Source: a virus
IMG/VR virus record: IMGVR_UViG_3300026097_000041
Span: 1 to 41,981 of that record
Direction: 5' to 3' (one strand)
DNA length: 41,981 nucleotides
Below are positions 1 to 31,506 of the stretch, piece by piece (position 1 is the stretch's first letter; the number at the start of each line of letters is the position of its first letter). The notes under the pieces were generated by a model, which had not been told where the DNA came from, did no database searches, and saw nothing but the letters and a program-made list of their open reading frames with translations. The translations under genes were made by a program, and so were the position numbers.

Positions 1-2
1 GT

Positions 3-299
3 GAATGGTTTATGCCTGATGAGTATAAAAAATACCCGATATTTGATTTCTGTAATAGTCAGTGTACGACTACAGAACAACGGGTTAGAGTTATGGAAGA
101 ATTTGAAGCCTTTGTCGAACGTGGAATGTTGCCGCTGTTATGCTACATGAAATATCTTGTAGACTTTATGCGTGAGAACAACATTGTGTGGGGAGTTGGT
201 AGAGGCAGCAGCGTTGCTAGTTATGTGCTGTATTTGATTGGTGTGCATCGTATTGATTCAATCCAATATGGACTCGACTGGCGCGAGTTCTTACGCTAA
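3..299 (+). CDS. DnaE-like (DNA polymerase III alpha) protein, 3'-terminal fragment
   Basis: The reading frame is open from the left edge, so the true start lies outside the window. The C-terminal stretch GVGRGSSVASYVLYLIG, then IDSIQYGL and EFLR, matches the part of the bacterial polymerase III alpha subunit just before the catalytic aspartates (GPGRGSAAGSLVAYALG...IDPL.Y.L.FERFL). The protein stops directly after EFLR. In DnaE the PDxDxD catalytic motif follows at this point, so those residues are absent. A polymerase activity is therefore unlikely. The missing N-terminus may carry a PHP-type domain, but this cannot be seen here. Such fragments are known in some large marine phages. Confidence 0.7.
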   Translation, partial: EWFMPDEYKKYPIFDFCNSQCTTTEQRVRVMEEFEAFVERGMLPLLCYMKYLVDFMRENNIVWGVGRGSSVASYVLYLIGVHRIDSIQYGLDWREFLR

Positions 300-326
300 A
301 TATACGTAGTTAATAAGGAGACTATT

Positions 327-749
327 ATGTCAAAGAATACTACAATGAGAAAACAGCATACTAGTATGCGAGGAAAAAAAGTAGATATGGATTTGTTACG
401 CAAACGTAATGAACTAACACCAGCAGTCGGAAATGCTCGTGTAAATGCCCGTGGCGACGAACTAGGCGCAGGCGGACAAATTATTAAAAAGCGTGAAGAA
501 ATTATAAAAGAGTATTATAACCAAGCTGGTGCAGTAAGAGGCGATTCTGGTCGTGCTAAACCAAAAGCAGCAGATGAAGTTATTGCTGCTGAACAGACTG
601 AGACTAAAACTAAGACTAAGACTACTCGTTCGACAAAGAAAACAGAAACAGAACTTACTCCTGAAGAAAAAGCAATGTTTGAAGAAGCTGAAGCAGAAGA
701 TGAGTGGATCGAAGACGATAGCGGAAATTTTGTAAAAAAAGGTGAATAA
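327..749 (+). CDS. Hypothetical charged phage protein
   Basis: A 140-residue protein of unknown function. A good Shine-Dalgarno (AAGGAG, about 315-320) precedes the ATG. The N-terminal half is basic. The middle holds a low-complexity run of alternating Lys and Thr (about residues 90-105), and the C-terminus is very acidic (EEAEAEDEWIEDD). No catalytic motif is visible. Its stop codon shares one base with the start of the co-chaperonin gene, so the two are probably translated together. It could be a disordered adaptor, but no role can be assigned. Confidence 0.8.
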   Translation: MSKNTTMRKQHTSMRGKKVDMDLLRKRNELTPAVGNARVNARGDELGAGGQIIKKREEIIKEYYNQAGAVRGDSGRAKPKAADEVIAAEQTETKTKTKTTRSTKKTETELTPEEKAMFEEAEAEDEWIEDDSGNFVKKGE

Positions 750-1153
750 TGGCTATAAATTTAAACACTATTAACGGATCACTAAAAGCAATTGGTAATC
801 GTGTAATTGTAAGTGATATGTATTTTGGTGAACAAAAAACTAAAAGCGGATTGATTCTCAGAAACGATGACGGCGAAACTCGTGGTATCTATCCTCGTTG
901 GGGCAAGGTGCATAGTAAAGGACCTAACAACGAAGACGCATACGAGATCGGAGAATGGGTATTAGTAGAACACGGTCGTTGGACTCGTGGAATTAAAATT
1001 GACGAAGGCAACGGCGAAATAGAGCTACGTATGGTTGAAGCTGAGTCAATTTTAGCATACTCAAAAGAGAAACCAGAAGGCGTCAGCATCGGTGCAGAAT
1101 ATGCAGACGGCGAACATGCAACTATAGACCCATCAGCATTTATTAATACATAA
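749..1153 (+). CDS. GroES-like co-chaperonin (T4 gp31 type)
   Basis: A 134-residue protein with a GroES pattern. Residues 13-35 give LKAIGNRVIV and KTKSGLIL, matching the first strands and the mobile loop of GroES (RPLxDRVIV...TxGGIVL). WGKVHSKGPN and EIGEWVLVEHG match GxVxAVGxG and VGDxVLF. It probably caps the host GroEL so that phage head proteins can fold, as gp31 does for gp23 in T4. The C-terminus is longer than in GroES. The ATG overlaps the upstream stop by one base. Confidence 0.8.
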   Translation: MAINLNTINGSLKAIGNRVIVSDMYFGEQKTKSGLILRNDDGETRGIYPRWGKVHSKGPNNEDAYEIGEWVLVEHGRWTRGIKIDEGNGEIELRMVEAESILAYSKEKPEGVSIGAEYADGEHATIDPSAFINT

Positions 1154-1162
1154 GAGGCAAAA

Positions 1163-1465
1163 ATGACAACAGCAGATAAAATTATTGCTTGGCACTACGA
1201 TAGAAATCTCATCGAAGGCAGCACTGACAAAGATCAGTATATGAAACTGATCCAGGAAATGGGTGAACTAAGTGACAGCATTTGCAAAGGCAAAGACATT
1301 AGAGACGATTGTGGAGATATCATGGTTGTACTGCTAAACATCATGGAACGCAACGGTTTAACTATGGAAGAATGTTTAGAAGTTGCATACAACGATATCA
1401 AAGATCGTAAAGGTAAAATGATTGATGGTGTGTTTGTAAAAGAAGCAGATTTACAAGATATGTGA
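1163..1465 (+). CDS. MazG-like nucleotide pyrophosphohydrolase
   Basis: A 100-residue all-alpha protein. It shows the MazG metal-binding pattern: E32-M-G-E35, then D49-x-x-D52 in an IRDDCGDIMVVLLNI helix. The family hydrolyses NTPs or dNTPs to monophosphates; phage versions are thought to remodel nucleotide pools or lower the alarmone signal. The start is preceded by AAGAGGCAAAA, a usable ribosome site. A second and different MazG-like gene lies at 3446-3742. Confidence 0.8.
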   Translation: MTTADKIIAWHYDRNLIEGSTDKDQYMKLIQEMGELSDSICKGKDIRDDCGDIMVVLLNIMERNGLTMEECLEVAYNDIKDRKGKMIDGVFVKEADLQDM

Positions 1466-2205
1466 ATAATCAAGTGTTATATGTATTTGGAGATAGTTTT
1501 AGTCATACGTTTAATGATGTTAACGATGCTAATGAATTAAGAAAATCTGAAAATTTTTATCCACAATTTATTCATATGGAAAATAATTGGGTTGATCTTG
1601 TAGCTGAGAAACTAACAGGTAAAACAGATCAAATTAATGACTCTATGGCCGGTGCAGCAAATGAATTTATTTTTCATCGATTTATGGATCAAATGAATGA
1701 ATACAAAGAAGGTGACTACATTATTGTTTGTCTTACTAGTGAAAATAGAAGATGGCTAATTGAGCAATCTCCGCATCTTTCAAATTTTGCAAATGCTAAT
1801 ATCAGAGACGGTATTACTAAACAAGAATATAAGGCAGTACAGCAGTACGTAAAGTATCTCTATTCGGACATGGCTTCGAGAGCAATATACGATTCAGTTC
1901 TTTGGGCAACTATTCATGCAGCTATAAACCTAGAACCATTAGGAGTAAAAATGTTGATATTACCTGGATTCCACCCGATTAACGGAGTTAAAGGAACGTT
2001 AACAGAAGTTTCAAACGCAGAATTTGATAGCATTAAGACTCGTGATGTATTTTATAAAAAAACAAATGATACAAGATGGAATCATTTTTCAGAAGAAAAT
2101 CACAAAATATTAGCCGATAAAGTGTGTGATTTTTTTACAGACTTTAAAATAGTAGATTTAACAACTGGATTTAAATCCAATATCTACACTAAAGATAATA
2201 TCTAA
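1462..2205 (+). CDS. SGNH/GDSL-type hydrolase-like protein
   Basis: A 247-residue protein with a GDSF motif at residues 10-13 (candidate nucleophile Ser12). A C-terminal NDTRWNHFS segment could carry the catalytic His of SGNH hydrolases. The family includes esterases, lipases and acyl or acetyl hydrolases; the substrate is unknown. The start is a GTG that overlaps the mazG stop (GTGA); a second in-frame GTG at 1474 is possible. No signal peptide is seen. The protein at 6367-7089 shares both motifs in the same order (GDSF and NDxRxxHxS), so the two are likely distant paralogues. Confidence 0.65.
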   Translation: MNNQVLYVFGDSFSHTFNDVNDANELRKSENFYPQFIHMENNWVDLVAEKLTGKTDQINDSMAGAANEFIFHRFMDQMNEYKEGDYIIVCLTSENRRWLIEQSPHLSNFANANIRDGITKQEYKAVQQYVKYLYSDMASRAIYDSVLWATIHAAINLEPLGVKMLILPGFHPINGVKGTLTEVSNAEFDSIKTRDVFYKKTNDTRWNHFSEENHKILADKVCDFFTDFKIVDLTTGFKSNIYTKDNI

Positions 2206-2213
2206 ATTAACAC

Positions 2214-2242
2214 TTGACTCCTAGCAGTTTATACGCTATAAT
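2214..2242 (+). promoter_or_regulatory. Host-type promoter, TTGACT-17-TATAAT
   Basis: TTGACT at 2214-2219, a 17-bp spacer and TATAAT at 2237-2242, in the intergenic gap before the small membrane gene. The context AACACTTGAC recurs at the promoters at 26298 and 39722. Confidence 0.85.
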
Positions 2243-2261
2243 GTATATAAATTGTTAGGAG
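2218..2261 (+). promoter_or_regulatory. RNA hairpin burying the Shine-Dalgarno, promoter -10 in its loop
   Basis: Arms CTCCTAGCAGTTTATA (2218-2233) and TATAAATTGTTAGGAG (2246-2261) form a 16-bp RNA stem: 14 Watson-Crick pairs and 2 G-U pairs, with a 12-base loop. The 3' arm ends in UAGGAG, the ribosome site of the ATG at 2269. The loop contains the TATAAT of the local promoter. Read-through RNA would hide the ribosome site; RNA started at the local promoter would lack the 5' arm. Confidence 0.75.
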
Positions 2262-2268
2262 TTTTCTT

Positions 2269-2433
2269 ATGAAATTACCAGTACCACAAACTAGTGGCAT
2301 AGGTACTACAGGTGCAACTGGCATTGCACTAATGATACTACATATCACAGGATTCTTAACAGGATGGGCTTGGCCTATTCTTTATGTATTCCTTATCGTC
2401 TCAGGCATCGGACAGGAGAATAGAAAACGATGA
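2269..2433 (+). CDS. Small membrane protein
   Basis: A 54-residue protein with two hydrophobic stretches (about residues 17-32 and 34-47, containing GWAWPILYVFLIVSG) and a charged tail ENRKR. It is the first gene behind the promoter at 2214 and the switch-like hairpin. The ribosome site TAGGAG sits 7 bases before the ATG. Its stop overlaps the start of the exonuclease gene (ATGA). The family is not recognised. Small early membrane proteins of this kind are common in T4-like phages and usually have unknown host targets. Confidence 0.75.
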   Translation: MKLPVPQTSGIGTTGATGIALMILHITGFLTGWAWPILYVFLIVSGIGQENRKR

Positions 2434-2969
2434 CTACTCATGCAATGATTGACTTAGAAACACTCGATACTCGTCCGCAATGTACGGTATTAAGTTTGGG
2501 CGCTGTAAAGTTTGATCCCTTCTCAGACGCCGAACCACATTCTGAATTGTATCTTAAAATTTGTGTAGACGATCAAAATCGTTTAGGACGTACTACTAGC
2601 GACGATACTATTGCTTGGTGGGCAAAACAAGAACCTAAGGTCATGGAAGAAGCGTTTGATCAAACAGGCGCAGTGACCGTAGAACAAGCACTAGAACAAC
2701 TTACTAAGTGGATCTGGGGCGCAGATAAAATTTGGGGACATGGCTACGGCTTTGACCTTACTATTATCGAAGATATGTATCGTAGTGCAGGAAAATCCAT
2801 TCCATATAACTTTTGGCAAGTGATGGATAGCCGCACATTGTTTAGTGTTCTTCCTAACGGAGATCCTCGTAAAACAATGCAAACAGATTTACACAATGCA
2901 CTAGCTGACGCATACTTTCAAGCAAAATCAGTACAAATAGCATACAAAGAACTAGGAGTTAAGCGATAA
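2430..2969 (+). CDS. dexA: 3'-5' exonuclease, DexA-like (DEDDh fold)
   Basis: A 179-residue nuclease of the RNase T/DexA class. Motif I is MIDLETLDTRP near the N-terminus (Asp and Glu metal ligands). An Asp-bearing WGHGYGFDLTII is motif II. HNALADAYFQA near the C-terminus is motif III with the H-x4-D pattern. T4 DexA is a single-strand DNA 3'-5' exonuclease; close bacterial relatives act on RNA, so the substrate remains open. It follows the small membrane gene with a 4-base overlap. Confidence 0.75.
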   Translation: MTTHAMIDLETLDTRPQCTVLSLGAVKFDPFSDAEPHSELYLKICVDDQNRLGRTTSDDTIAWWAKQEPKVMEEAFDQTGAVTVEQALEQLTKWIWGADKIWGHGYGFDLTIIEDMYRSAGKSIPYNFWQVMDSRTLFSVLPNGDPRKTMQTDLHNALADAYFQAKSVQIAYKELGVKR

Positions 2970-3127
2970 TGGGTAAACATATCAAAACACAAATGGACTA
3001 TGACATGATTGAGCAACTAGCTCAACAAGTGTTTCAGCTAGATCCAACTAATGCAGTATTGCAAAAGTTTTTAAAGATGGATAACTTTGAAGGAAACGAA
3101 CTGAGAAAGGCTATCAAAGATGAGTGA
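2969..3127 (+). CDS. Small hypothetical protein
   Basis: A 52-residue, probably helical protein (MGKHIKTQMDYDMIEQLAQQ...). The ATG shares one base with the dexA stop and its stop overlaps the next start, so it sits in a tight operon. No motif is recognised. The frame is supported by the chain of junctions and by similar codon use to its neighbours rather than by homology. Confidence 0.6.
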   Translation: MGKHIKTQMDYDMIEQLAQQVFQLDPTNAVLQKFLKMDNFEGNELRKAIKDE

Positions 3128-3299
3128 ACAAACAAACTATTGCACATTAAAAGGTCTTGGTTGGGCTATGCTAATCATTACATTTTTTATGGTTGGTGTG
3201 CCTTTGCTGATGAACATTGCTATTATGGGCCCAGAGGAGTATGGTCGAAAATGCAATATGTCACTTGCTACGCCTTGCTTTGGGTTGGGTAATGATTAG
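3120..3299 (+). CDS. Small membrane protein
   Basis: A 59-residue protein with one strong membrane segment (residues 13-36, GLGWAMLIITFFMVGVPLLM). A short polar C-terminus contains two cysteines. It overlaps the gene before it by 8 bases and the gene after it by 8 bases. The function is unknown. Confidence 0.6.
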   Translation: MSEQTNYCTLKGLGWAMLIITFFMVGVPLLMNIAIMGPEEYGRKCNMSLATPCFGLGND

Positions 3300-3456
3300 A
3301 TGGTATGATTATCCAGTAGCATTTCTAGCCGCAGACTTTATGACTGGATTTATATTCAGTGGTAGCATCTTTGGCGGCGTGGCAGCATATGCTGTATACT
3401 ACATCTGGGACGATGTATATTGTTCGTATAGACTGGAGCAAGAACATGGTAAGTAA
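3292..3456 (+). CDS. Small membrane protein
   Basis: A 54-residue protein beginning MIRWYDYPVAFLAADFMTG, with one or two membrane helices (about residues 8-38) and a charged end (EQEHGK). A longer frame opens at 3217. I prefer the ATG at 3292 because the upstream part overlaps a convincing gene in another frame, and because an 8-base overlap fits the local style. No family is recognised. Confidence 0.55.
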   Translation: MIRWYDYPVAFLAADFMTGFIFSGSIFGGVAAYAVYYIWDDVYCSYRLEQEHGK

Positions 3457-3742
3457 CACAGAACTAGAAACGCCAATCAACGACTTTCAACAGTTGATGG
3501 CTATTACATCAGAAGAGAGCAGCGAGCTTACACAAGTTTGTATGAAACTGCTACGCAAGTATGAATCGTTAGACGCTGCGTCAGGGGATAAACATCTCGA
3601 GTTACTTAATGAAGAAGCAGGCGATGTTTATGCAATGATTGATTTACTTTGTGAACATGGTGTGTTACAATGGAAACATATTTACGCTAGAAGTAGTTAT
3701 AAAAAAGAAAAACTCAAACAGTGGAGTACGCTAATTAAATGA
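3446..3742 (+). CDS. MazG-like nucleotide pyrophosphohydrolase (second copy)
   Basis: 98 residues when started at the ATG at 3446; the upstream in-frame extension covers another gene and is not protein-like. The metal-binding pattern is E24-x-x-E27 (EESSEL) and E57-x-x-D60 (NEEAGDVYAMIDLL). The spacing between the two halves is longer than in the enzyme at 1163, and the sequences are otherwise unlike. These are two members of the MazG-like superfamily, not a recent duplication. The stop TGA overlaps the next ATG. Confidence 0.7.
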   Translation: MVSNTELETPINDFQQLMAITSEESSELTQVCMKLLRKYESLDAASGDKHLELLNEEAGDVYAMIDLLCEHGVLQWKHIYARSSYKKEKLKQWSTLIK

Positions 3743-3906
3743 TGGATAGACAATCAAAAGACGAAAATACATCAAAAGAACAAATCGACGAATTCTTAGC
3801 AAAAGGTGGTACCATTACTAAGTGTCCTCCAGGAGCACGTACAGAAAACATCGAAGTTAAGGGCGGCTTCTACGGCCGTAAAAAGAAAAAGGACGATGAT
3901 GAATGA
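3739..3906 (+). CDS. Small protein with FLAKGG motif
   Basis: A 55-residue hydrophilic protein. Its core EQIDEFLAKGGTIT resembles EMIDAFLKKGGAVT in the protein at 38174-38356, and its C-terminus is strongly charged (RKKKKDDDE). The two genes are probably members of one small phage family. The role is unknown; the basic patch could bind nucleic acid. The start overlaps the mazG-like stop and the stop overlaps the protease start (ATGA). Confidence 0.6.
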   Translation: MMDRQSKDENTSKEQIDEFLAKGGTITKCPPGARTENIEVKGGFYGRKKKKDDDE

Positions 3907-5111
3907 AGACGTTAGCAGTACAAAAATACAAGGCTAAGAAAGCAGAAAAAGTTATTCCTGTTGCAGCATTGCCATTATTGGCAGGATGTTATAATAGCAG
4001 CAATGAACAACACACGGTACAGACGCCTATTAACGAAATAAACAACAAGACTGACAATGAACCAGTTGTTGTAATACTTGATTTTTTTCAAACAAACACA
4101 TACCACGGACCGCAGGTGCTAAAAAACTTCTACGGTGAATTTCTCAGTGACAGTAAAGAAGTAACTGTAATTGCAGAGGATGTTGATCCTGAAAAATCTC
4201 CTGGTGTGGTACTGAGAGTGTTTGAAGACTTTGATCCAGATGTAGTAAATGTCAGTTGGGGATGGGACATAGATACGTTTTATCCTTATATCGGCGAATA
4301 TAAAGATCATGATCCTGGTTTTACTGGATACATCAATCACCTGCAAGACATTCAGACATTATACGAAAATGGAGTTACTATAACCGCAAGTGCCGGTAAT
4401 GATGGTATAGACGGCGCAACCAATGCTACATTTGCCAATAGTATATTTCCTATTATGGTAGGTGCTTACAGTCAATATAATGGCGAAATTTATGACTGGA
4501 GCGACCAAGGCAGTGCAGTTGTCCATTACTATGAATCAGGCGATGGCTGGGGAATAGAAGGAACAAGTTATGCTGCGCCTAGAGTTGCTGCACATGTTGC
4601 TACTATCAAAAGTGAGTATCCGGATATTAGTGAAAGTTCAGTAAGAACACTGCTAGAAAAGAATAGTATGTATGATTTTGACAGCGGAAAATATGTTCAA
4701 AAATTAGACGAACTAGACAAAACAATGGATCCAAGTATTGATACTCAAGTTAAGGTAGAGTCTGTTTTTGAAATCTTCGAAGGCAGAAATCCTAGTCAAG
4801 TAGAACTTGACAGATGGATCGAGTTAGTAGACAGTGGAAATGAAACACTAGGTTCGATGGCTATGCAGTTTGCTATAAATGGTATTCAAACTGATGATGT
4901 TCCGCCTATTGAACGTATGCAAGCATTTTACCATTTTTGGTTAGGTAGAGAATCTAAGGATACAGAGATTGTGGATATGTTCAGTGATTTAGTTGATACG
5001 CAAGATTGGAACAAAACATTTGATAACTTTATTGAAACAGAAAACATTGACACAGACTATAGTTTTGTGTATAATAATTACGATGCATTAACAACAGAGG
5101 CAATAGTATAA
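3903..5111 (+). CDS. Subtilisin-like (S8) serine protease lipoprotein
   Basis: A 402-residue protein. It has a basic N-terminus, a hydrophobic stretch and a lipobox L26-A-G-C29, so it should be exported and lipid-anchored at Cys29. The catalytic residues fit a compact subtilase: Asp60 (VVVILD), His68 (HGPQV), oxyanion Asn166 (SAGND) and Ser222 in GTSYAAPRVAAHVA. Only seven residues separate Asp60 from His68, which is short but seen in some S8 proteases. Residues about 285-400 hold two repeats resembling DUF4214 (VFEIFEGRNPSQVELDRW; FYHFWLGRES). The target is unknown. It directly precedes the clamp-loader gene, whose start it overlaps by one base. An exported protease in a replication operon is unusual. 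Confidence 0.75.
   Translation: MKTLAVQKYKAKKAEKVIPVAALPLLAGCYNSSNEQHTVQTPINEINNKTDNEPVVVILDFFQTNTYHGPQVLKNFYGEFLSDSKEVTVIAEDVDPEKSPGVVLRVFEDFDPDVVNVSWGWDIDTFYPYIGEYKDHDPGFTGYINHLQDIQTLYENGVTITASAGNDGIDGATNATFANSIFPIMVGAYSQYNGEIYDWSDQGSAVVHYYESGDGWGIEGTSYAAPRVAAHVATIKSEYPDISESSVRTLLEKNSMYDFDSGKYVQKLDELDKTMDPSIDTQVKVESVFEIFEGRNPSQVELDRWIELVDSGNETLGSMAMQFAINGIQTDDVPPIERMQAFYHFWLGRESKDTEIVDMFSDLVDTQDWNKTFDNFIETENIDTDYSFVYNNYDALTTEAIV
5047..5075 (+). promoter_or_regulatory. Host-type promoter TTGACA-17-TATAAT inside the protease gene
   Basis: TTGACA at 5047-5052, a 17-bp spacer and TATAAT at 5070-5075: a perfect sigma-70 consensus. It lies in the last codons of the protease gene, 36 bases before the clamp-loader ATG. 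Confidence 0.75.
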
Positions 5112-6025
5112 TGAAAGAACTTTGGGTAGAAAAGTATCGTCCTAAAACAGTAGACGGTTATGTGTTTCGTGATGATGCACAACGTAACCAAGTAAACACT
5201 TGGATTAAAGATAAGACTATTCCGCACTTGCTGTTTAGTGGTAATGCAGGCATTGGTAAGACTACACTTGCTAAACTATTGTTTAACGAACTTGATATTA
5301 ATGATCTAGACATACTAGAAATTAACGCATCGCGAACAAACTCAGTAGATGATGTACGTGATAAGATTGTAAACTTCGTACAAATGATTCCATTTGGCGA
5401 CTTTAAGGTTGTGTTACTAGATGAGGCTGATTACTTATCGCCCAACGCACAAGCAGCACTACGTGGAGTGATGGAAGAGTATCATACTACAGCACGTTTT
5501 ATTCTTACTTGCAATTATCCCAACAGAATTATTCCTGCGCTACACAGTCGTTGTCAAGGCTTCCATATTGCTAAGATTGACCAGACTGAGTTTACAGCAC
5601 GAGTTGCGGAAATCCTTATCACAGAAGGTGTTACTCCAGACTTGGATACACTTGATACATATGTAAAAGCAACGTATCCAGACTTGCGTAAGTGTATTAA
5701 CATGGTGCAGATGAACTCAGTAGACGGTTTATTAGTTGCTCCGCAGCAAGGAGACACAGGTGAAAGTGATTGGAAGCTTGAAATGGTTGAGTTGTTCAAA
5801 GCAGGCAAGATTCAAGAAGCACGTAAACTACTCTGCGGCGCAATTCGTCCAGAAGAAATGGAAGAAGTGTATCGTTGGCTGTACGACAACATTGAACTAT
5901 TCGGAAATGAAGAGCAACAAGATACAGCAGTGCTAACTATTAAGCAAGGGATGGTGGATCATACATTGGTTGTTGATCCTGAGATAAATTTAGCGGCAAC
6001 GCTCATACGATTAGCGAGAATTTAA
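5111..6025 (+). CDS. Clamp-loader ATPase subunit (T4 gp44 type)
   Basis: A 304-residue AAA+ protein of the RFC small-subunit class. It begins WVEKYRPKTVDGYV. Walker A is GNAGIGKT (44-51), Walker B is LLDEAD (102-107), sensor 1 is LTCNYPNRI and the arginine-finger motif is SRC. It loads the sliding clamp (gene at 32251) onto DNA for the polymerase at 27207. In T4 the gp62 partner gene follows directly; here ferredoxin follows instead and no gp62-like protein is recognised in the window. Its own promoter lies at 5047. Confidence 0.93.
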   Translation: MKELWVEKYRPKTVDGYVFRDDAQRNQVNTWIKDKTIPHLLFSGNAGIGKTTLAKLLFNELDINDLDILEINASRTNSVDDVRDKIVNFVQMIPFGDFKVVLLDEADYLSPNAQAALRGVMEEYHTTARFILTCNYPNRIIPALHSRCQGFHIAKIDQTEFTARVAEILITEGVTPDLDTLDTYVKATYPDLRKCINMVQMNSVDGLLVAPQQGDTGESDWKLEMVELFKAGKIQEARKLLCGAIRPEEMEEVYRWLYDNIELFGNEEQQDTAVLTIKQGMVDHTLVVDPEINLAATLIRLARI

Positions 6026-6367
6026 ATGACATATATTGTAAATGATGCATGTATCAAATGTAAACATATGGATTGTGTAGAAGTATGTCCAGTAGACTGC
6101 TTTTATGAAGGTGAGAACATGTTGGTTATTAATCCAACAGAATGTATTGATTGCGGAGTATGCGAACCTGAGTGTCCTGCAAACGCTATTTTGCCTGATA
6201 CAGACGATACTGCAAAATCATGGATAGACTTTAATCAGAAGTACTCAGATTTGTGGCCTAATATTACAGAAATGCGTCCTGAAGATGTACCTGCTGATGC
6301 TGAACAATGGCACGGTGTAGAAAACAAAATAGAATACTTTAGTGAAGCCCCAGGAAAAGGCGACTAA
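6026..6367 (+). CDS. fdxA: 7Fe-8S/4Fe-4S ferredoxin, FdxA type
   Basis: A 113-residue ferredoxin. The cluster ligands are C9, C17, C21 and C25, and C40, C43, C46 and C50 ([11 protein letters not shown]), with the [10 protein letters not shown] segment typical of FdxA. The C-terminal extension YSDLWPNIT and the terminal APGKGD are hallmarks of alphaproteobacterial FdxA, so the gene looks host-acquired and intact. It could supply low-potential electrons to iron-sulphur enzymes such as QueE (40491) or to the host's reductive metabolism; that is inference. It sits flush against the clamp loader, and its stop overlaps the next ATG. Confidence 0.93.
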
Positions 6368-7089
6368 TGTTACTTAATGAAGATTTAAAAAATAAACGTG
6401 TATTGGTCATAGGCGATAGCTTTACTGATATTCTCAGCACTTCTCACTCTTGGCTTAATAGATTAAGAATACACTATAGTTGGAATGTTGACAATAGATC
6501 AATACCTGGATCAGGTAGTGATTATGCATTTTATGAATTTATGCATAATACACAAGATTTTGATATATGTATATTTGCCTGGAGTGAGCCGGATAGATTT
6601 TTTATTCCCGGTATTCCGCATTTAAATAGTTCTGAAGTAAAATTAAAAAAATTTATGGAACCGTGGCAAAAAGACATTTATAGAGCAGCACAGCATTATT
6701 ATATGCATCTAAGAAATGAAGAAATGATAATTTATAAAAATGTTGCCTTATTGCATTGGTTAGACGACCATTTGTCAAAAAAATATAAAGATAAAATATT
6801 TTTACACTTTCATTCTTTTCCAAAGCCTGATATTAGAGATAATGTTTATACATCAGTTAAAGACATGGACGAACCCAATTTATATCATACATTTAAAACC
6901 GGTATAAATATTACTCCTAGTTTGTTAAAAATAAGTGTTACAGATCCTGATGCACCAGAAGATTTTGGAAATGATCATCGTTCCGGACATCTAAGTAAGC
7001 AACTACATGAAAGATTGTTTTATGGACTTATTAAGCATTTTAAAAGTCATACATATACAGATAATAATATAATAGATTTAGGAAGATAA
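6367..7089 (+). CDS. SGNH/GDSL-type hydrolase-like protein (second copy)
   Basis: A 240-residue protein with VLVIGDSFTD (residues 13-22; Ser18 the candidate nucleophile). A C-terminal NDHRSGHLS carries the probable catalytic His. The overall order matches the gene at 1462, but most of the sequence has diverged. No signal peptide is seen, so it probably acts in the cytoplasm or on virion or host glycans during assembly. The substrate is unknown. It is notably AT-rich. It lies between ferredoxin and DHFR with one-base junctions. Confidence 0.65.
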   Translation: MLLNEDLKNKRVLVIGDSFTDILSTSHSWLNRLRIHYSWNVDNRSIPGSGSDYAFYEFMHNTQDFDICIFAWSEPDRFFIPGIPHLNSSEVKLKKFMEPWQKDIYRAAQHYYMHLRNEEMIIYKNVALLHWLDDHLSKKYKDKIFLHFHSFPKPDIRDNVYTSVKDMDEPNLYHTFKTGINITPSLLKISVTDPDAPEDFGNDHRSGHLSKQLHERLFYGLIKHFKSHTYTDNNIIDLGR

Positions 7090-7090
7090 T

Positions 7091-7573
7091 ATGATTAGAG
7101 CAATACTCGCCTGCGACGAAGAATGGGGTATCGGTAAAGCCGGAACACTTCCGTGGCCGCATAATCCTGCTGACCAGAAATGGTTTAGAGATTGTACATT
7201 AAATAGCACGGTTGTTATGGGACGAGCAACCTGGGAAGATCCTGATATGCCTAAGCCTATGCCCAAGCGACACAATGTAATTGTATCAAGCACAATGAAA
7301 GAAAACAGCCACGAACGCATTGAAGTAGTGCGCCCTGACATTTACAAGTCTCGCTGTGTTACTATGAACATGACGGACGATGTTTGGATTATTGGTGGAG
7401 CAAAATTAGTTGCTGATAGCCTTGACATTATTGACGAAATTTGGCTAAGCCGTATTAGTGGAAAATATAACTGCGATACATTTTTACCTAGAGAATTAAT
7501 TGAAACAACATTTAACCTTATAAGCAGCGAGCGCGAAGGCGATGTATATATAGATAAGTGGAGAGCATATTGA
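7091..7573 (+). CDS. Dihydrofolate reductase
   Basis: A 160-residue enzyme that regenerates tetrahydrofolate consumed by thymidylate synthase. Visible motifs are the N-terminal IRAILACDEEWGIGKAGTLPW (Trp22-loop equivalent), VVMGRATWED, HNVIVSS, and the NADPH-binding DVWIIGGAKLV. The length is that of a normal DHFR (T4 Frd is slightly longer). It overlaps thymidylate synthase at a TTGA junction, the classic phage pairing. Confidence 0.92.
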   Translation: MIRAILACDEEWGIGKAGTLPWPHNPADQKWFRDCTLNSTVVMGRATWEDPDMPKPMPKRHNVIVSSTMKENSHERIEVVRPDIYKSRCVTMNMTDDVWIIGGAKLVADSLDIIDEIWLSRISGKYNCDTFLPRELIETTFNLISSEREGDVYIDKWRAY

Positions 7574-8436
7574 GACAATATTTAGACGCATTAGAATATA
7601 TTTTAGCTAACGGCAAAGACCGCAGCGACAGAACTGGAGTAGGCACACGTGGTGTATTTGGTTATCAAATGCGTTTTGATTTGCGAGACGAGTTTCCTGC
7701 TGTTACTACAAAAAAGCTTGCTTGGAAAAGTGTAGTAAGTGAGCTACTATGGTTCTTAGAAGGTTCTAGTGACGAACGTAGACTAGCTGAGATACATTAC
7801 GGCAAGCCGCGTGAAGAACTAGTAGGCAAGAACACTATTTGGACTGCTAATGCTGACAAACAAGCTAAAGACTTAGGATATGTCAATACGGATACAATAA
7901 AGGATCTAGGACCAGTTTATGGACATCAATGGCGCACTTGGGATGCTGCACTAGGCTTTGTAGATCAAATTGCAGATGTATTAGAAAATTTATATCATGA
8001 TCCAGATAGTCGCAGACATATTGTAAGTGCATGGAACGCTGACAGAGTAAACGTAATGGCGCTGCCGCCGTGTCATACACTATTTCAATTCCATGTACAA
8101 GATGGAGAACTAAGTTGCCAACTCTATCAACGTTCAGCAGATATGTTCTTAGGTGTCCCGTTTAATGTTGCAAGTTATAGTTTGCTTACACACATGTTTG
8201 CTCAGTTGCTTGATCTAAAAGTAGGAGATTTTGTATGGACTGGTGGTGATTGTCACATTTATCAAAATCATATGGAACAAGTTAAAGAACAAATTACTAG
8301 AGAACCACGTAAAGGTCCAATATTGGAAATACCAGCCTTTAAGGACTTAGAAGAATTAGTAAATACTAGACCGAGTGATTACAAATTACTTAATTACAAT
8401 CCTATGGATTCGATTAAGGCTCCTATGGCAGTATGA
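7570..8436 (+). CDS. thyA: Thymidylate synthase (ThyA)
   Basis: A 288-residue enzyme that converts dUMP to dTMP using methylene-tetrahydrofolate. The catalytic Cys168 is in LPPCHTLFQFHV. RSDRTGVGT, GPVYGHQWR, YQRSADMFLGVPFN and CHIYQNH are all standard. I chose the TTG at 7570: the protein then begins MRQYLDALEYIL like other ThyA, a GGAG lies 6 bases upstream, and it overlaps the DHFR stop as TTGA. A GTG at 7558 is the alternative. Confidence 0.93.
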   Translation: MRQYLDALEYILANGKDRSDRTGVGTRGVFGYQMRFDLRDEFPAVTTKKLAWKSVVSELLWFLEGSSDERRLAEIHYGKPREELVGKNTIWTANADKQAKDLGYVNTDTIKDLGPVYGHQWRTWDAALGFVDQIADVLENLYHDPDSRRHIVSAWNADRVNVMALPPCHTLFQFHVQDGELSCQLYQRSADMFLGVPFNVASYSLLTHMFAQLLDLKVGDFVWTGGDCHIYQNHMEQVKEQITREPRKGPILEIPAFKDLEELVNTRPSDYKLLNYNPMDSIKAPMAV

Positions 8437-8600
8437 AAAAACTTTGGCGCATATGGGCCAAAAGTTTAGGCGAGAAAGTTGGCGAAACTGATAAGCAAGC
8501 CGATGCAGTTGCTATGATCAGAACGTTTTGGTGGGTAGTGCATATCATAACTTGTTTTATGATTATTATACATAATGGCGCAAAATTAGGATGGTGGTAA
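8433..8600 (+). CDS. Small membrane protein
   Basis: A 55-residue protein: a basic amphipathic N-terminus (MKKLWRIWAKSLGEKVG), then one membrane helix (about residues 30-46, TFWWVVHIITCFMIII). The start overlaps the thyA stop (ATGA). The family and role are not recognised. Confidence 0.65.
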   Translation: MKKLWRIWAKSLGEKVGETDKQADAVAMIRTFWWVVHIITCFMIIIHNGAKLGWW

Positions 8601-8601
8601 T

Positions 8602-8841
8602 ATGTTTGGACATGGTTACTACGGTAATAAGTTAGACGATCAAGAGCGACATGAAGAACGATTTGCTTGGTTGCCTGTGCGTAGTACTTTTAATAAAAAA
8701 CGTATATGGTTGAAAAAATATTATATTGTGCATATACTATATGATCATAACGGACGTCCGCCTATAAAAGGATGGAGTTGGCCGTTGATATATTCTAAGA
8801 ACGAATACTTGGTAATGCTGTTGAAAAGGGAATTTGAATGA
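8602..8841 (+). CDS. Hypothetical protein
   Basis: A 79-residue basic, aromatic-rich protein (MFGHGYYGNKLDDQERHEE...). TAGGA upstream of the ATG is a usable ribosome site. The stop overlaps the dCMP deaminase start by four bases. No known domain is seen. Confidence 0.65.
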   Translation: MFGHGYYGNKLDDQERHEERFAWLPVRSTFNKKRIWLKKYYIVHILYDHNGRPPIKGWSWPLIYSKNEYLVMLLKREFE

Positions 8842-9269
8842 AACCTAAGTTTATTGAAGCTTACATGGACGTTGCTGAACGTTTCGCACAATTAAGTAGT
8901 GCAACACGACTACAAGTTGGTGCTATTGTTGTTAAGGATGATCGTATTATTAGTATTGGTTACAACGGCATGCCTGCTGGTTGGGATAATTGCTGTGAAG
9001 ATGTTATAAGACAGGACGAAGTAGGTCACTCTATACTAAAATCAAAGCCAGAGGTCCTTCACGCAGAGTCGAACGCAATCGCTAAACTAGCAAAGTCTCC
9101 TGAGAGTGGAGATGGTGCAAGTATTTTTATTACACACAGCCCTTGTATGGATTGTGCTAAACTAATATATCAAAGTGGAATAGCCACTGTGTACTACAAA
9201 GAAAGTTATCGTAGTACACAGGGCATTGACTTTTTAGAAAAGTCAGATATTGAAGTAATTAAAGTTTAA
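8838..9269 (+). CDS. dCMP deaminase
   Basis: A 143-residue zinc deaminase that makes dUMP for thymidylate synthase. H75-A-E77 gives the zinc ligand and catalytic Glu; HSPCMDC supplies Cys103 and Cys106. The N-terminal part (ATRLQVGAIVVKDDRIISIGYNG) is typical of the family. Together with DHFR and ThyA it forms a complete dTMP route. The stop is directly adjacent to the convergent phoH stop, with no terminator between them. Confidence 0.92.
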   Translation: MKPKFIEAYMDVAERFAQLSSATRLQVGAIVVKDDRIISIGYNGMPAGWDNCCEDVIRQDEVGHSILKSKPEVLHAESNAIAKLAKSPESGDGASIFITHSPCMDCAKLIYQSGIATVYYKESYRSTQGIDFLEKSDIEVIKV

Positions 9270-9995
9270 TTAAGTATCTCCGTATATTCGAAGGACTTCT
9301 TTTACTGCTTCATGACGTTCAATGTCCTTCGATTCAAAACGTACTAGATTGAGTCTAGAACTTTCAGTTGTATCTAAATGATTAACAAAATCTATTAGAC
9401 CGTTATCTTTTAGACGATCTGCTTGTGCTAAATCACCTGTTACACACATTTTAGAGCCTGCGCCCAAACGTGTTAGTAACATCTTCATTTGATTTGGTGT
9501 TGCGTTTTGCATTTCGTCTGCAATAATATAAGCATCTTTGAATGTTCGACCACGCATATATGCAAGTGGAGCAATTTCAATTATACCTTCAGCGATCATC
9601 CCTTCTATTTCTCTAGCATTAAAATATTCTCTCAACACATCAAATATAGGGCGTGTCCATGGAGCCATTTTTTCTTCCATAGTGCCCGGCAAGAAACCTA
9701 GATCTTCATCAACTGACACTGCTGGTCTTGTGACAATTATCTTGTCTACTTCACCTTCTTTGAATTTTTTTACTGCAACTTGTACAGCCAACAGAGTTTT
9801 ACCTGTTCCTGCTGGACCGATTCCAAAGACTATATCTTTTGTTTCGTCAAGCAGTGCTAACACATAGGTTTCTTGATTTCTATTGCGTGGAAGGATTTGT
9901 ACTTGTTTCTTTTTTTGATAAGTATTGATTTCAACAACGTTTCCGTTGTTTGCGACTGAGTTATTACGCTTCTTAGAAGCACGTTTTGCACCCAT
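9270..9995 (-). CDS. phoH: PhoH-like P-loop ATPase
   Basis: A 241-residue protein, the only convincing minus-strand gene of the window. Walker A is GIGPAGTGKTLLA, Walker B is YIIADEMQNATPNQ, and further PhoH motifs are VTRPAVSVDEDLGFLPG and GAGSKMCVTGD. PhoH is common in marine phages. It is linked to phosphate starvation and possibly RNA metabolism, but its role in phages is unproven. The N-terminal 30 residues are basic. A strong ribosome site (AAGGAGG) precedes the start, and the leader contains an imperfect hairpin. Confidence 0.92.
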   Translation of the reverse strand: MGAKRASKKRNNSVANNGNVVEINTYQKKKQVQILPRNRNQETYVLALLDETKDIVFGIGPAGTGKTLLAVQVAVKKFKEGEVDKIIVTRPAVSVDEDLGFLPGTMEEKMAPWTRPIFDVLREYFNAREIEGMIAEGIIEIAPLAYMRGRTFKDAYIIADEMQNATPNQMKMLLTRLGAGSKMCVTGDLAQADRLKDNGLIDFVNHLDTTESSRLNLVRFESKDIERHEAVKEVLRIYGDT

Positions 9996-10019
9996 TAAGT
10001 GTCCTCCTTAGGGGTTATG

Positions 10020-10054
10020 GTAGGACCATTTGCTCGCAGGAGCATTTGCCCTAC
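10020..10054 (-). promoter_or_regulatory. Imperfect hairpin in the phoH leader
   Basis: Two nested stems: GTAGG (10020-10024) with CCTAC (10050-10054), and TGCTC (10031-10035) with GAGCA (10040-10044), separated by an internal loop. It lies about 25 bases upstream of the phoH start in a 149-base gap between divergent genes. Neither direction has a T-run, so a terminator is not indicated. Confidence 0.4.
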
Positions 10055-10110
10055 AAAAGTATTTACCATCAAGATAGCAAAGATAAAATAATATATAACT
10101 CTTTAGATAC

Positions 10111-10118
10111 GATAAATA
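10111..10118 (+). promoter_or_regulatory. T4-like late promoter box GATAAATA
   Basis: GATAAATA matches the NATAAATA late box of T4-like marine phages. It lies 26 bases before the ATG at 10145, at the head of the late block. It is the only clear plus-strand signal in the gap after the divergent phoH gene. Confidence 0.6.
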
Positions 10119-10144
10119 AGTATAGTTAAACAACGGATTACACC

Positions 10145-10654
10145 ATGCATGATGTACTAGATATTATTAAAAATATAGACACGATTTATAATTCAAATAC
10201 AGCCCTTCAAGTTCTTAAAGACTTTGAAAGAGTTCTCGACGAACTTGATGTGTATGTATATGCTAATTGGGAAGATGGCGAACTTGCAGAAGGTCCAAAG
10301 ATAGACCGTCATTGGGTTACATGTTCATTTATGTGGCCAAAAGATAAAATGCCAGATCCAATGGGCGGAAAACGTCTATTAGATTATGACTGCAAAGTTA
10401 GTTATAAAAAAAGTCATATAGTTGAGCCACGTAAAATTGAAAAGCCTGATGACATTCGTCCTGGCACTAAAAAAGGCAAACTAGACAGATCTCCTATTTG
10501 GATCGTTGAAATTCAAATGCCTAAAAAATTAATAGCAGATATCTATACAGGTTATATGCAAGAAATAGTGGAGCCTGCAAATGATCAGTCGCCTACTCCA
10601 GAGCCACAACAGGCTGATGATATTGTAGATAACGACGAAGGACTAGCACAATGA
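10145..10654 (+). CDS. Hypothetical late protein
   Basis: A 169-residue protein. A compact N-terminal two-thirds (helical start LDIIKNIDTIYNSNTALQVLKDFERVL, then strand-rich parts) is followed by an acidic Pro-rich tail (about residues 142-169). A late box precedes it and the next gene overlaps its stop (ATGA). Position and promoter suggest a virion or assembly protein. No family is recognised. Confidence 0.75.
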   Translation: MHDVLDIIKNIDTIYNSNTALQVLKDFERVLDELDVYVYANWEDGELAEGPKIDRHWVTCSFMWPKDKMPDPMGGKRLLDYDCKVSYKKSHIVEPRKIEKPDDIRPGTKKGKLDRSPIWIVEIQMPKKLIADIYTGYMQEIVEPANDQSPTPEPQQADDIVDNDEGLAQ

Positions 10655-11370
10655 CACTAAGACAAAACGATTTAAGAGATTTAGTTGATCATATACTAGA
10701 AATTGATTCGTACAAAAGTAAAATGGGCTCTGACGAAGATATTATAACGGTTGCATTTTCTACAAAAACTAAAGAAGCAGCAACGGACCTTTCTAACTTT
10801 ATTGAAAAAGGATATACATTTGTACTAGATGCTGATGCTACTCCTGGAGAACAAAGTGACGGCACTTATAAAGTGTTTGTTGAAATTGAAAGAGATAAAG
10901 CTGCTAGTAGTCAGATAGTAGAACTAGCCGACGGTGTTAGTAAACTAGCACAACTTGATGATATTAAATTTAGATATTATAAAAACTTTCGTAGTATGAA
11001 TTTAGATCAAGAAACTTTAGAAAGTAATATACCTACAAGTTCAGACGATTACGGAATTAAAGTAAACGAGTCGAATTTAGAAAATTATAAAAACTTTTTT
11101 AATAAAAGCTTCGTAGAAAGCGTTGATATGTGGGACGATGTATTACGTATTAAAAAGTCATATGCAGATCCTGTGTTTTTTAAATTTGTAGACTTTGGTG
11201 ATACAGTTGAAACTGTAGAAGCAATTAACGAAAGTTTTAATCCTTGGGATTTCTCAGAGATCATTTTTTTAAGTAAGTATGTGGGCGATTATAATATAAC
11301 CAAATACGGTGATAAATTAACGTTTGAAAATGGGGCAAAAACGTTAGTAGTAGAACGTATATTAACATAA
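10651..11370 (+). CDS. Hypothetical late protein
   Basis: A 239-residue acidic protein with no recognised domain. The N-terminal half contains alternating strands and helices, with a segment reminiscent of ferredoxin-like folds (VFVEIERDKAASSQIVELAD). It is coupled to the upstream gene by ATGA and lies directly before the endolysin, so it is expected to be expressed late. A structural role is only a guess from position. Confidence 0.75.
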   Translation: MTLRQNDLRDLVDHILEIDSYKSKMGSDEDIITVAFSTKTKEAATDLSNFIEKGYTFVLDADATPGEQSDGTYKVFVEIERDKAASSQIVELADGVSKLAQLDDIKFRYYKNFRSMNLDQETLESNIPTSSDDYGIKVNESNLENYKNFFNKSFVESVDMWDDVLRIKKSYADPVFFKFVDFGDTVETVEAINESFNPWDFSEIIFLSKYVGDYNITKYGDKLTFENGAKTLVVERILT

Positions 11371-11380
11371 GGAAACTACA

Positions 11381-12229
11381 ATGAGTGCTGAACATTTTGA
11401 ATTTGAATTCACAGAAGATCAAGTTATCGAGTTACTAAGAGGTAACGAAGAAGCAGAAGATTGGTATGACGCAATGTGCGAAATACTCCCGCTTTGGGAA
11501 ATCAATACTATTCCTAGAGTAGCAGGGTTTATTGCACAATGCGGGCACGAATCAATGAATTTTAAAGTTATTAGTGAGAATCTAAACTATAGTGCAAAAG
11601 CACTAAATGCAATTTTCCCAAAATACTTTGAAAGAGCAGGGAGAGATGCAAGTGAATATCATAGACAACCTCGCAAAATTGCGAACGTTATTTACGCAAA
11701 CAGAATGGACAACGGAGACACAGACAGCGGTGACGGCTGGCGCTTCCGTGGAGGTGGCCTTATTCAGCTTACAGGACGTTATAACTATACAAAATTTGCA
11801 GAAGCAGTAGAAATGACTCCGGAAGAAGCAATCGACTATGTACGCACTAAAAAAGGCGCACTAGATAGTGCTTGCTGGTTCTGGGATGAAAATAATATCA
11901 ACAGATATTGTGATAATGCAGACATTGTTGGAATGACCAAACGTATCAACGGCGGCACAATCGGCCTAGAAGATCGTAAAAAACACTGGCAACACGCACT
12001 AGAAGTTTTCGGTGGTGATTGGGAGCCAGGAAAAGTTGCCTACGAAACCGTGAAGCTAGGTTCAAGAGGCCCAACCGTTACAGCAGTACAAGAAGAATTA
12101 GAAATTAGTGCAGACGGTATCTTTGGACGTGGCACAGAAGCACATGTTAAGGCATGGCAAGAAGAAAACGGTCTTGTAGCAGACGGTATTATGGGCCCTG
12201 CGAGTCTTGCTATGATGTTTGGAGATTAA
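11381..12229 (+). CDS. GH19-type endolysin with C-terminal peptidoglycan-binding domain
   Basis: A 282-residue muramidase/chitinase-fold lysin. The catalytic domain (about 10-200) has E57 in CGHESMNF and GWRFRGGGLIQLTGRYNY, both typical of glycoside hydrolase family 19. Residues about 215-280 form a PG_binding_1 domain (VKLGSRGPTVTAVQ, DGIFGRGTEAHVKAWQ, DGIMGPASL). There is no signal peptide, so release needs a holin. Directly downstream are the spanins, a membrane protein, a lipase and an EF-hand membrane protein. A ribosome site, AAGGA, precedes the ATG. Confidence 0.9.
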   Translation: MSAEHFEFEFTEDQVIELLRGNEEAEDWYDAMCEILPLWEINTIPRVAGFIAQCGHESMNFKVISENLNYSAKALNAIFPKYFERAGRDASEYHRQPRKIANVIYANRMDNGDTDSGDGWRFRGGGLIQLTGRYNYTKFAEAVEMTPEEAIDYVRTKKGALDSACWFWDENNINRYCDNADIVGMTKRINGGTIGLEDRKKHWQHALEVFGGDWEPGKVAYETVKLGSRGPTVTAVQEELEISADGIFGRGTEAHVKAWQEENGLVADGIMGPASLAMMFGD

Positions 12230-12230
12230 T

Positions 12231-12698
12231 ATGAGACTTTCAGCTATACTATTTGTTATAATTTTAGTAATGGGAGGAATCGGTTACTGGTATTACAACG
12301 ATACACAAGCGACTATTTCAACACTAACTGAAAATAATGCTAAGTTAGGTATGGCAGTTGAAACTCAAGAAGTAGCAATAGAAAGTTTACAACAAGACTA
12401 TGCTTCTATGGCTGCTGAAAATCAACGCATCAATGAAGCATATGCTGATATACGTAGACAAAATAATAGATTGTCAGAAAAACTTAGCGACATTGATTTA
12501 GGTCTACTAGCAGCAGAAAAACCAGATAGTATCGAACGTGCTGTAAATAGAGGTACAGTAAATGCGGGCAGGTGTTTTGAAATACTATCAGGTTCGCCAC
12601 TAACAGAGGATGAATTAAATGCAAAAGACGGTGAGAGTTTTAACAAAGAGTGCCCTTGGCTTTGGCCTGGTCCTAGCACTAACGGCGTGCTCGAGTAA
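12231..12698 (+). CDS. Inner-membrane spanin (Rz-like)
   Basis: A 155-residue protein: an N-terminal membrane anchor (residues 2-22, LSAILFVIILVMGGIGYWYY), then a long coiled coil (about 30-95) and a globular end. This is the standard i-spanin plan. I start it at the ATG at 12231, which has a GGAG 6 bases upstream; a TTG at 12219 would add four residues. The o-spanin gene begins inside its 3' end in another frame, as in Rz/Rz1. Confidence 0.8.
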   Translation: MRLSAILFVIILVMGGIGYWYYNDTQATISTLTENNAKLGMAVETQEVAIESLQQDYASMAAENQRINEAYADIRRQNNRLSEKLSDIDLGLLAAEKPDSIERAVNRGTVNAGRCFEILSGSPLTEDELNAKDGESFNKECPWLWPGPSTNGVLE

Positions 12699-13020
12699 TC
12701 CACTTCAGAGAATTGAAGTAAGTGCTAAACCTATAGACAAACCTGAGCTTACATTACCTCCTGTTGACGAACTTCGTTTACGTAATATTGACTGGGTAGT
12801 TATTAATGCAGAAAATATGGAAGAAAAAATAGCAGAATTAACTGCTAACGGTCAACCTTATGGGCTGTTTGTTCTTACTGGTGAAGGTTATGAAAATCTT
12901 GGGCTAAATTTTTCAGATATCCGTGCGCTAGTACAACAACAAAAACAAATTATTTTAGCTTATGAGCGTTATTACAAAGAAGCAGAACAGGCACTAGACG
13001 GCGCAGTTCAAGCCGAATAG
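12619..13020 (+). CDS. Outer-membrane spanin lipoprotein (Rz1-like)
   Basis: A 133-residue lipoprotein. Signal KSALGFGLVLALTAC ends in a lipobox with Cys24. A Pro-rich region (ELTLPPVDELRL) follows, and the C-terminus is helical. The first 80 bases overlap the i-spanin gene out of frame, which strongly supports a two-component spanin that fuses inner and outer membranes at lysis. It is longer than classical Rz1, with an extra C-terminal domain of about 80 residues. Confidence 0.8.
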   Translation: MQKTVRVLTKSALGFGLVLALTACSSNPLQRIEVSAKPIDKPELTLPPVDELRLRNIDWVVINAENMEEKIAELTANGQPYGLFVLTGEGYENLGLNFSDIRALVQQQKQIILAYERYYKEAEQALDGAVQAE

Positions 13021-26297: not shown

Positions 26298-26326
26298 TTG
26301 ACAATTATCTAAATATATCATATAAT
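26298..26326 (+). promoter_or_regulatory. Host-type promoter TTGACA-17-TATAAT
   Basis: Perfect consensus: TTGACA 26298-26303, 17-bp spacer, TATAAT 26321-26326, preceded by AACAC as at 2214 and 39722. The TATAAT also forms a 6-bp dyad with ATTATA at 26336-26341, but the region is so AT-rich that this may be chance. Confidence 0.9.
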
Positions 26327-30803: not shown

Positions 30804-31506
30804 ATTCGTATTTGATGTAGACGGAACATTAACACCGAGCCGTCAAAGCATAGATCCAGAGTTTAAAGAGTTCTTTAAAACTTTTATTCAAGATAACAAG
30901 GTGTGGCTGGTAACTGGCAGCGATTATCCAAAGACTGTAGAACAGCTTGGTGCAGACATTACAGAGTCAGTTGTTACTTGTTATAATTGTAGTGGAAGTG
31001 ATGTTTGGTTCAAGGGCAAGCGGGTAAATTCTAAAACATTTGACGCACCAAAAGAACTATATGACTTAATGAATGGTTGGTTACAGGCTAGTCCTTTTCC
31101 AGTAAGAACAGGGCGGCATATTGAAGAACGTCCAGGAATGATTAATTTTAGTATTGTAGGCAGAGGTGCTTCTTTAGAAGAACGCAAGATGTATATAGAT
31201 TACGATACTGCTAATAGAGAACGTGAAAGTATTGCTTACGAAATCAACAGCAAGTTCGAAAATATTACTGCTACATTAGGTGGCGAAACCGGCATTGACA
31301 TTGCTTATACAGGTGCGGACAAAAGTCAAATACTACAAGATTTTGAGGATGATGATTTTATTGTATTCTTTGGCGATCGAATGGAAGAAGGCGGCAATGA
31401 TTGGCCTTTAGCATTAGCCAACTATAATGGTGAAAATTATCATGTAAAAGATTGGAAACATACTTGGGAGATTCTAAAGAATGAATATTCTACTAACAGG
31501 TCATAG
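30796..31506 (+). CDS. Phosphomannomutase-like HAD phosphatase/mutase
   Basis: A 236-residue HAD-superfamily protein. The nucleophile loop is D7-V-D9-G-T (FDVDGTLTPSR). GMINFSIVGRG and FFGDRMEEGGND match the eukaryotic-type phosphomannomutase (PMM) branch, in which mannose-6-phosphate and mannose-1-phosphate are interconverted. It lies between a cytidylyltransferase and an epimerase, suggesting a small sugar-nucleotide pathway. The true substrate is uncertain. Confidence 0.75.
   Translation: MNKFVFDVDGTLTPSRQSIDPEFKEFFKTFIQDNKVWLVTGSDYPKTVEQLGADITESVVTCYNCSGSDVWFKGKRVNSKTFDAPKELYDLMNGWLQASPFPVRTGRHIEERPGMINFSIVGRGASLEERKMYIDYDTANRERESIAYEINSKFENITATLGGETGIDIAYTGADKSQILQDFEDDDFIVFFGDRMEEGGNDWPLALANYNGENYHVKDWKHTWEILKNEYSTNRS

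Follow-up and report, generated by a model that had tools for sequence, protein, structure and literature searches.

Why should a phage carry, amid genes for replication and nucleotides, a gene whose predicted product is a protease exported to the cell envelope? The question is raised by an ORF of a linear virus record of 41,981 bases, the whole of which was analysed and is called the window here. A preliminary description had taken the product of this ORF for an exported subtilase lipoprotein with DUF4214-like repeats. We examine below the gene and its neighbours, the domains of the protein and its relatives, and the places at which such a protease might act.

Gene, neighbours and promoter-like sites

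The gene and the elements next to it are the following:

2214..2242, plus strand, promoter-like TTGACT-N17-TATAAT upstream of the exonuclease gene (consensus match)
3742..3906, plus strand, small upstream ORF of 54 aa, its stop overlapping the subtilase start (ATGA)
3903..5111, plus strand, compact subtilase lipoprotein gene, 402 aa (Peptidase_S8 match, five close relatives, purifying selection)
5047..5075, plus strand, sigma-70-type consensus TTGACA-N17-TATAAT inside the 3' end of the subtilase ORF (consensus match)
5111..6025, plus strand, gp44-like DNA polymerase sliding-clamp loader (phrog_168, E=3.6e-76)

The subtilase ORF begins with an ATG at 3903 and its stop codon ends at 5111, the last base of this codon being the first base of the clamp-loader gene. 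At the other end, the ATGA overlap with the 54-aa ORF suggests that translation of the two may be coupled. The neighbours comprise a DNA-polymerase-like fragment, a GroES/head-morphogenesis-like gene, a MazG-like gene, the exonuclease gene, an NTP-pyrophosphohydrolase-like gene and the small ORF, together with the clamp loader, a ferredoxin-like gene and a thymidylate synthase gene; the putative place of the subtilase in a replication operon is read from these neighbours alone. Among named phages, those closest in the polymerase and the clamp loader are of the jumbo type, e.g. Sinorhizobium phage Phosso, Atu_ph07 and PA5oct (all <60% identity), which we take to be members of the T4 superfamily. 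The gene just upstream of the subtilase varies, being GAPDH-like in the relative L006 (7030-7995) and dihydroorotate-dehydrogenase-like in the relative L007 (32-718), both by eye. Since this gene differs between relatives, the subtilase position looks like a cargo site ahead of the clamp loader. Elsewhere, the window encodes a ClpA-like ATPase (15746-17992; phrog_4871, E=5e-252). No matches to a prohead protease or a major capsid protein (Pfam S77, Gp23) were obtained in 13 records, and the controls likewise gave none.

A promoter for the clamp loader had been claimed to lie within the subtilase gene, and a promoter-like site is found there: the exact TTGACA-N17-TATAAT at 5047-5075 ends 35 bases ahead of the clamp-loader start and is also present in three relatives. 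Four such exact sites occur in the window, all on the plus strand, as against 0.03 expected over both strands under a Markov model. The other three are located at 26298-26326, 32195-32223 and 34682-34710; that at 32195 falls within the terminal part of the ORF ahead of it (31481-32254), a layout like that at 5047. With up to two mismatches allowed, 18 sites were found in the window vs 9.6 expected, and a looser promoter scan of positions 1-10200 yielded no more sites than shuffled sequence would give (37 vs 38.3 expected).

In the window and in L003, L006 and L007, the 5047 site is identical at each of its 12 hexamer positions and in its 17-base spacing, the clamp loader following directly in L003 and L006 and after about 190 bases in L007. 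The site is absent from L004. L002, in which the next gene is MazG-like (by eye) instead of a clamp loader, keeps 11 of the 12 hexamer positions, and the contrast between clamp-loader-linked sites and others is therefore not clean. In a synonymous-site test at the internal site, the longest run of identical codons was ordinary (permutation P=0.84), so that constraint beyond that on the protein is not demonstrated. We regard the conserved internal site as good pattern evidence for a putative clamp-loader promoter, not as proof of constraint. The site at 2214-2242 is a candidate promoter for the gene run that includes the subtilase. Given the replication/nucleotide gene block and the host-type promoter sites, the subtilase should appear early or midway in infection.

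Domains and relatives of the predicted protein

Five close relatives, L002 (70% identity to the window protein), L003 (58%), L004 (43%), L006 (66%) and L007 (65%), form with the window the close set (n=6). Distant relatives of like architecture (L018, L019/L021 and L022) were found by a block scan for the Ser motif, and L027 and L028 were added; the complete aligned set has 12 members, across which identity to the window protein drops to 23%. Kept outside the counts were duplicates (L005, with the gene sequence of L006; L020/L030, with the protein of L018; L019/L021, with the contigs of L024/L025), repeated contigs (L008, L009, L013-L017, L026, L029, L036-L039 and L041-L046) and partial copies at contig ends (L031-L033 and L040), while L011, L012 and L023 are other subtilases and served as outgroups. 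The dN/dS values of 0.06-0.20 in 6 pairs indicate purifying selection; because dS is near saturation (1.6-2.0) in three pairs that include the window, the closer pairs (dN/dS 0.06-0.14) are the better guide. The protein can be divided as follows:

3903..3989, plus strand, predicted lipoprotein signal peptide and lipobox, residues 1-29 (lipobox rule passed throughout the close set)
3990..4055, plus strand, linker, residues 30-51, of variable length and sequence among relatives (alignment)
4056..4694, plus strand, subtilase domain (invariant catalytic residues in the aligned members; AlphaFold2 model and structural matches)
4080-4082, 4104-4106, 4398-4400 and 4566-4568, plus strand, codons of Asp60, His68, Asn166 and Ser222, respectively
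4704..5108, plus strand, C-terminal helical region with two DUF4214-like repeats (hhalign to distant-clade C-termini; helices in the model)

Peptidase_S8 scores 57.3 bits in the window protein against a cut-off of 21.8 (Pfam, E=2e-15), is matched in all six close members and exceeds the cut-off in the three distant members scanned. The catalytic motifs named in the preliminary description hold throughout, as Asp60, His68, the oxyanion Asn166 and Ser222 are invariant in 12/12 complete members and stand in the order Asp-His-Asn-Ser. By Pfam score and this order, the predicted protein is confirmed as a subtilase of family S8. The Asp-His distance of 8 residues in the window protein, which had been called atypical, is real and a trait of the family, since it amounts to 6-12 in all 12 members vs 30-47 in five other subtilases; in subtilisin BPN' it is about 32. 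No I9-type propeptide was found in the window protein or its close relatives, for which the Pfam scans list no propeptide family. About 25 variable residues separate Cys29 from the first strand, and the linker of residues 30-51 is too short to hold such a propeptide. With neither a propeptide nor the long Asp-His segment, the predicted protein would fall outside the classical propeptide-dependent secreted subtilisins. The Pro behind the Ser motif is missing from L004, as is the SWG-motif Gly, which L018, L024, L025, L027 and L028 lack too. The partial member L040, outside the 12-member alignment, apparently has Glu for the catalytic Asp (by eye).

An AlphaFold2 model built from 12 sequences reached a pLDDT of 78.2 and a pTM of 0.84; a model from 6 sequences was poor (pLDDT 48), and our conclusions rest on the former. 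Foldseek ranked subtilisins first (E=3.3e-07, TM 0.45/0.57), and VIA-align gave a Z of 18.2 for Apa1 (rmsd 2.7, 205 aligned residues) and of 17-18 for subtilisins, the structural comparison covering model residues 1-229 well and the C-terminal part barely. In subtilisin, the Asp ends the first strand, the His starts the first helix and the Ser opens the central helix. The model shows the same arrangement for Asp60, His68 and Ser222, which stand at the end of the first strand, the start of the first helix and the start of the central helix, respectively, and a subtilisin fold is present as far as the model goes. Together with the Peptidase_S8 matches and the purifying selection, this fold bears out, at a level well above chance, the earlier claim of a subtilase gene at 3903-5111.

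The lipobox that had been claimed ends at Cys29, the predicted lipidated residue, which is followed by Tyr. The rule applied, a PROSITE-like pattern, is passed by 6/6 close members, compared with 0.2-0.8% of the shuffled N-termini of these members, and by 0/6 distant members. Among 107 ATG ORFs of at least 50 aa in the window, two pass it, i.e. the subtilase and an o-spanin-like gene. The signal sequences of the close members vary widely in length and letters and keep the end L-[AS]-[AG]-C. Cys29 is the sole Cys of the window protein, and the lipobox Cys is the sole one in four of the six close members, the window included. In E. coli, an Asp after the lipobox Cys retains lipoproteins in the inner membrane; since no close member (0/6) has Asp directly after the Cys, the outer membrane is likelier than the inner membrane for the window protein. 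The distant members L018, L022, L024, L025, L027 and L028, which fail the rule, start at most 11 residues from the catalytic Asp, too near for a signal peptide to fit, indicating that the family as a whole is not tied to the envelope.

The DUF4214-like repeats span approximately residues 279-325 and 334-380, with limits set by eye. The claim that such repeats are present holds through intermediates: two of three distant relatives match Pfam DUF4214 (PF13946), P0010 with 41.3 bits and P0011 with 32.6 bits (cut-off 23.2), and the C-termini of the window clade and the distant clade align by hhalign with 99.2% probability (E=2e-19). The claim does not extend to a direct match, as the window protein itself (P0001) gave none to this Pfam family at E up to 10. 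The third distant relative, P0009, had no DUF4214 match at E 0.1, and one of the six close members had one at E=0.14. In segmented filamentous bacteria, DUF4214 has been described as probably serving to anchor proteins at the surface (PMC12780176), and for a DUF4214 protein of Halomonas anchorage at the outer membrane has been hypothesised (PMC11970703).

Searches of 50,697 phage records (tblastn of P0001, P0010 and P0011) gave no relative among named phages at E 0.01. With P0003 and E up to 10, four weak matches were obtained in phage records, namely two gut contigs (best E 0.01) and two Atu_ph07 records, all of them subtilases with long Asp-His spacing. P0003 had no match in plasmids; P0010 matched six plasmid records, all across the DUF4214 region. 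Pattern scans of bacterial genome contigs, made with short peptide patterns which can miss members, gave no relative. As judged from the contigs, the family extends to other phage types, in which its predicted members have no lipobox and some adjoin lysis genes, suggesting that it is not bound to a lipoprotein lifestyle. In L040, at 3233-4521, two proteins that look exported, of which one carries a lipobox by eye, are encoded immediately upstream of the partial subtilase and overlap it.

Possible sites of action of the protease

Both the lipobox and the early character of the gene neighbourhood speak for a protease that acts in the envelope of the infected cell. Our best reading, with a probability of roughly 0.45, is that the gene encodes a protease tethered to the host envelope and made early, for which superinfection exclusion would be a plausible role. 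Of the parts of this reading, an active, envelope-tethered protease is likely from the sequence, and superinfection exclusion as the main role is possible but doubtful. After export by the Sec/lipoprotein pathway, the subtilase would be attached through Cys29 to the envelope of the infected cell, where the catalytic domain would follow a flexible linker and the two DUF4214-like repeats may dock the protease to a surface structure. It would then cut envelope proteins or proteins of an incoming phage. The likeliest benefit would be that a second phage is kept from the infected cell (superinfection exclusion), and the next likeliest, conditioning of the envelope before lysis. The sequence itself shows the gene and its order among its neighbours, the class of fold, the conserved active site and lipobox, the promoter-like sites and the purifying selection. 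We infer export, lipidation, timing and activity from the predicted features of the gene and its product, and consider substrate and benefit speculative. The preliminary description is thus supported in part, in its structural features, whereas the functions it offered (shedding of receptors for superinfection exclusion, attack on competitor structures and processing of envelope proteins) are speculative. That so short an Asp-His link would have to serve in a working triad is counted against this reading, as are the distant members without a lipobox, the residues missing from L004 and others, the seeming Glu of L040 and the loose promoter scan without an excess.

A T4-type phage can hold a superinfection-exclusion function among its early genes, as the precedent of T4 Spackle indicates; Spackle, a periplasmic protein made early, acts in superinfection exclusion (PMC7677548). 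A related reading is that minimal, propeptide-free phage proteases would sit on one or the other face of the envelope and destroy receptors or incoming injection proteins, i.e. bring about a catalytic superinfection exclusion. Members without a signal would then arrive at the envelope by lysis or by another export route. We hold this reading to be rather doubtful.

The rival readings are weighed against the lysis genes of the window:

11381-12229, endolysin gene
12219-12698 and 12619-13020, overlapping spanin-like genes

This set (11381-13020) is of the Gram-negative type, with an endolysin, an Rz-like i-spanin and an overlapping spanin-like lipoprotein that has a lipobox. The subtilase was considered as a spanin and rejected: the spanin pair is that beside the endolysin, about 6 kb from the subtilase gene, and with its own endolysin and spanin pair encoded elsewhere in the window the phage does not need the subtilase in this capacity.

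A helper of lysis or egress is another matter. Such a protease would weaken outer-membrane or surface proteins late in infection, or destroy receptors on debris and so spare the progeny. L022 is flanked on one side by a tail-assembly chaperone gene (PF16778) and a small membrane-protein gene (by eye), and on the other by a gene that resembles a holin only weakly (GTA_holin_3TM, E=0.05, under the cut-off) and one for a phage lysozyme (PF00959, E=8.5e-31). The neighbours of L019/L024 are convergent genes for a GTA_holin_3TM protein (31.5 bits, over the cut-off) and a GH108 endolysin. The positions of L022 and L024 beside putative lysis genes fit a role in lysis at least as well as they fit the envelope-tethered early protease, and DUF4214 is consistent with surface binding. 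However, the window gene lies in the replication/nucleotide block, away from the endolysin and the spanin pair, and the lysis set of the window looks complete without it. We therefore consider a lysis helper unlikely, though with a real share of the probability.

The tail-assembly chaperone gene after which L022 comes could also point to a virion-associated protease that cuts surface proteins at entry. Atu_ph07, a distantly related jumbo phage, has its subtilase gene one gene from an annotated tail-fibre gene. The Atu_ph07 domain, however, has the canonical Asp-His spacing and is matched by P0003 only at E=10, a lipoprotein signal is unusual on virion proteins, and the nearest downstream virion-protein matches in the window are about 5 kb off (10145-11370). 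The C-terminus of the Atu_ph07 subtilase fusion (L010, 4864-8619) resembles, by eye, a large L003 protein (226-3750), but the latter has no PHROG match at E 0.001, and thus no subtilase domain is apparent in it. On this evidence a virion protease is improbable for the window.

Alternatively, the subtilase domain may have been kept as a scaffold by a catalytically dead binding protein which, for example, blocks receptors stoichiometrically. The loss of most of the Asp-His stretch, the missing propeptide and the partial L040 seemingly without its Asp would all suit a dead enzyme. Invariance of Asp, His, Asn and Ser in every complete member, despite identities as low as 23%, speaks against it, as does the subtilisin-like placing of Asp60, His68 and Ser222 in the model, and this explanation is improbable too. 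The weakest, a cytoplasmic host-takeover or anti-defence protease, would suit the six complete members that have neither a lipobox nor room for a signal peptide and the L018 clade, which lies between nuclease-like and dUTPase-like genes (names by eye), but it is improbable for the window protein, which shares its lipobox with all five close relatives, and the PADLOC matches were weak (best E 1e-06 in five proteins scanned) and fell over the subtilase core.

Comparison with known systems

The window subtilase is one of a family of virus proteases about which little is known, and its compact active site, without a propeptide and most of the Asp-His stretch, is of interest to enzymologists. Should its true role lie in lysis or entry, it would still add an uncharacterised protease family to phage biology. 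With the subtilisins of family S8 (BPN', Carlsberg, KP-43 and Apa1), the window protein has in common the fold, the Asp-His-Asn-Ser order, and the AGN and GTS-x-x-A motifs. It differs from them in its Asp-His distance of 8, the absence of a propeptide, the lipobox tether and the DUF4214-like tail.

Phage subtilases are already known from Atu_ph07 and from several uncultured phage entries in BFVD, and a paper on phages of a Bacillus contains the word subtilase (PMC13118943). The serine proteinase of Atu_ph07 (phrog_3677, a profile that hits the window protein at 7.6e-09) is likewise a phage subtilase, but it has 1251 aa and an Asp-His spacing of 47, and is fused to a long structural-looking C-terminal part. 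By text search, subtilisin is not mentioned in the Atu_ph07 paper (PMC6102473), and subtilisin, lipoprotein and DUF4214 have 0 mentions in a survey of jumbo phages (PMC7824862). Among the literature matches listed, as represented by titles and the beginnings of abstracts, there is no phage lipoprotein subtilase, and a compact, propeptide-free lipoprotein subtilase with a DUF4214-like tail appears to be new with respect to these. On the Roseobacter plasmid of Pseudosulfitobacter (NZ_CP054603), a subtilase is found beside DUF4214 repeats in one locus, as in the window protein, but with an Asp-His spacing of 34, and with RTX-like repeats and several DUF4214-like units by eye. This locus (L035, 1887-4686) is annotated as two overlapping ORFs.

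T4 Spackle, Ltp of TP-J34 and Llp of T5 resemble the window protein in being small phage proteins of the infected-cell envelope. They bind or block, whereas the window protein is a predicted protease. To our knowledge, none of the three is a protease, and the cases of superinfection exclusion that we know of all use proteins that bind or block. If the role in exclusion proposed for the envelope-tethered subtilase is true, a membrane-tethered phage protease would represent a catalytic route to excluding other phages.
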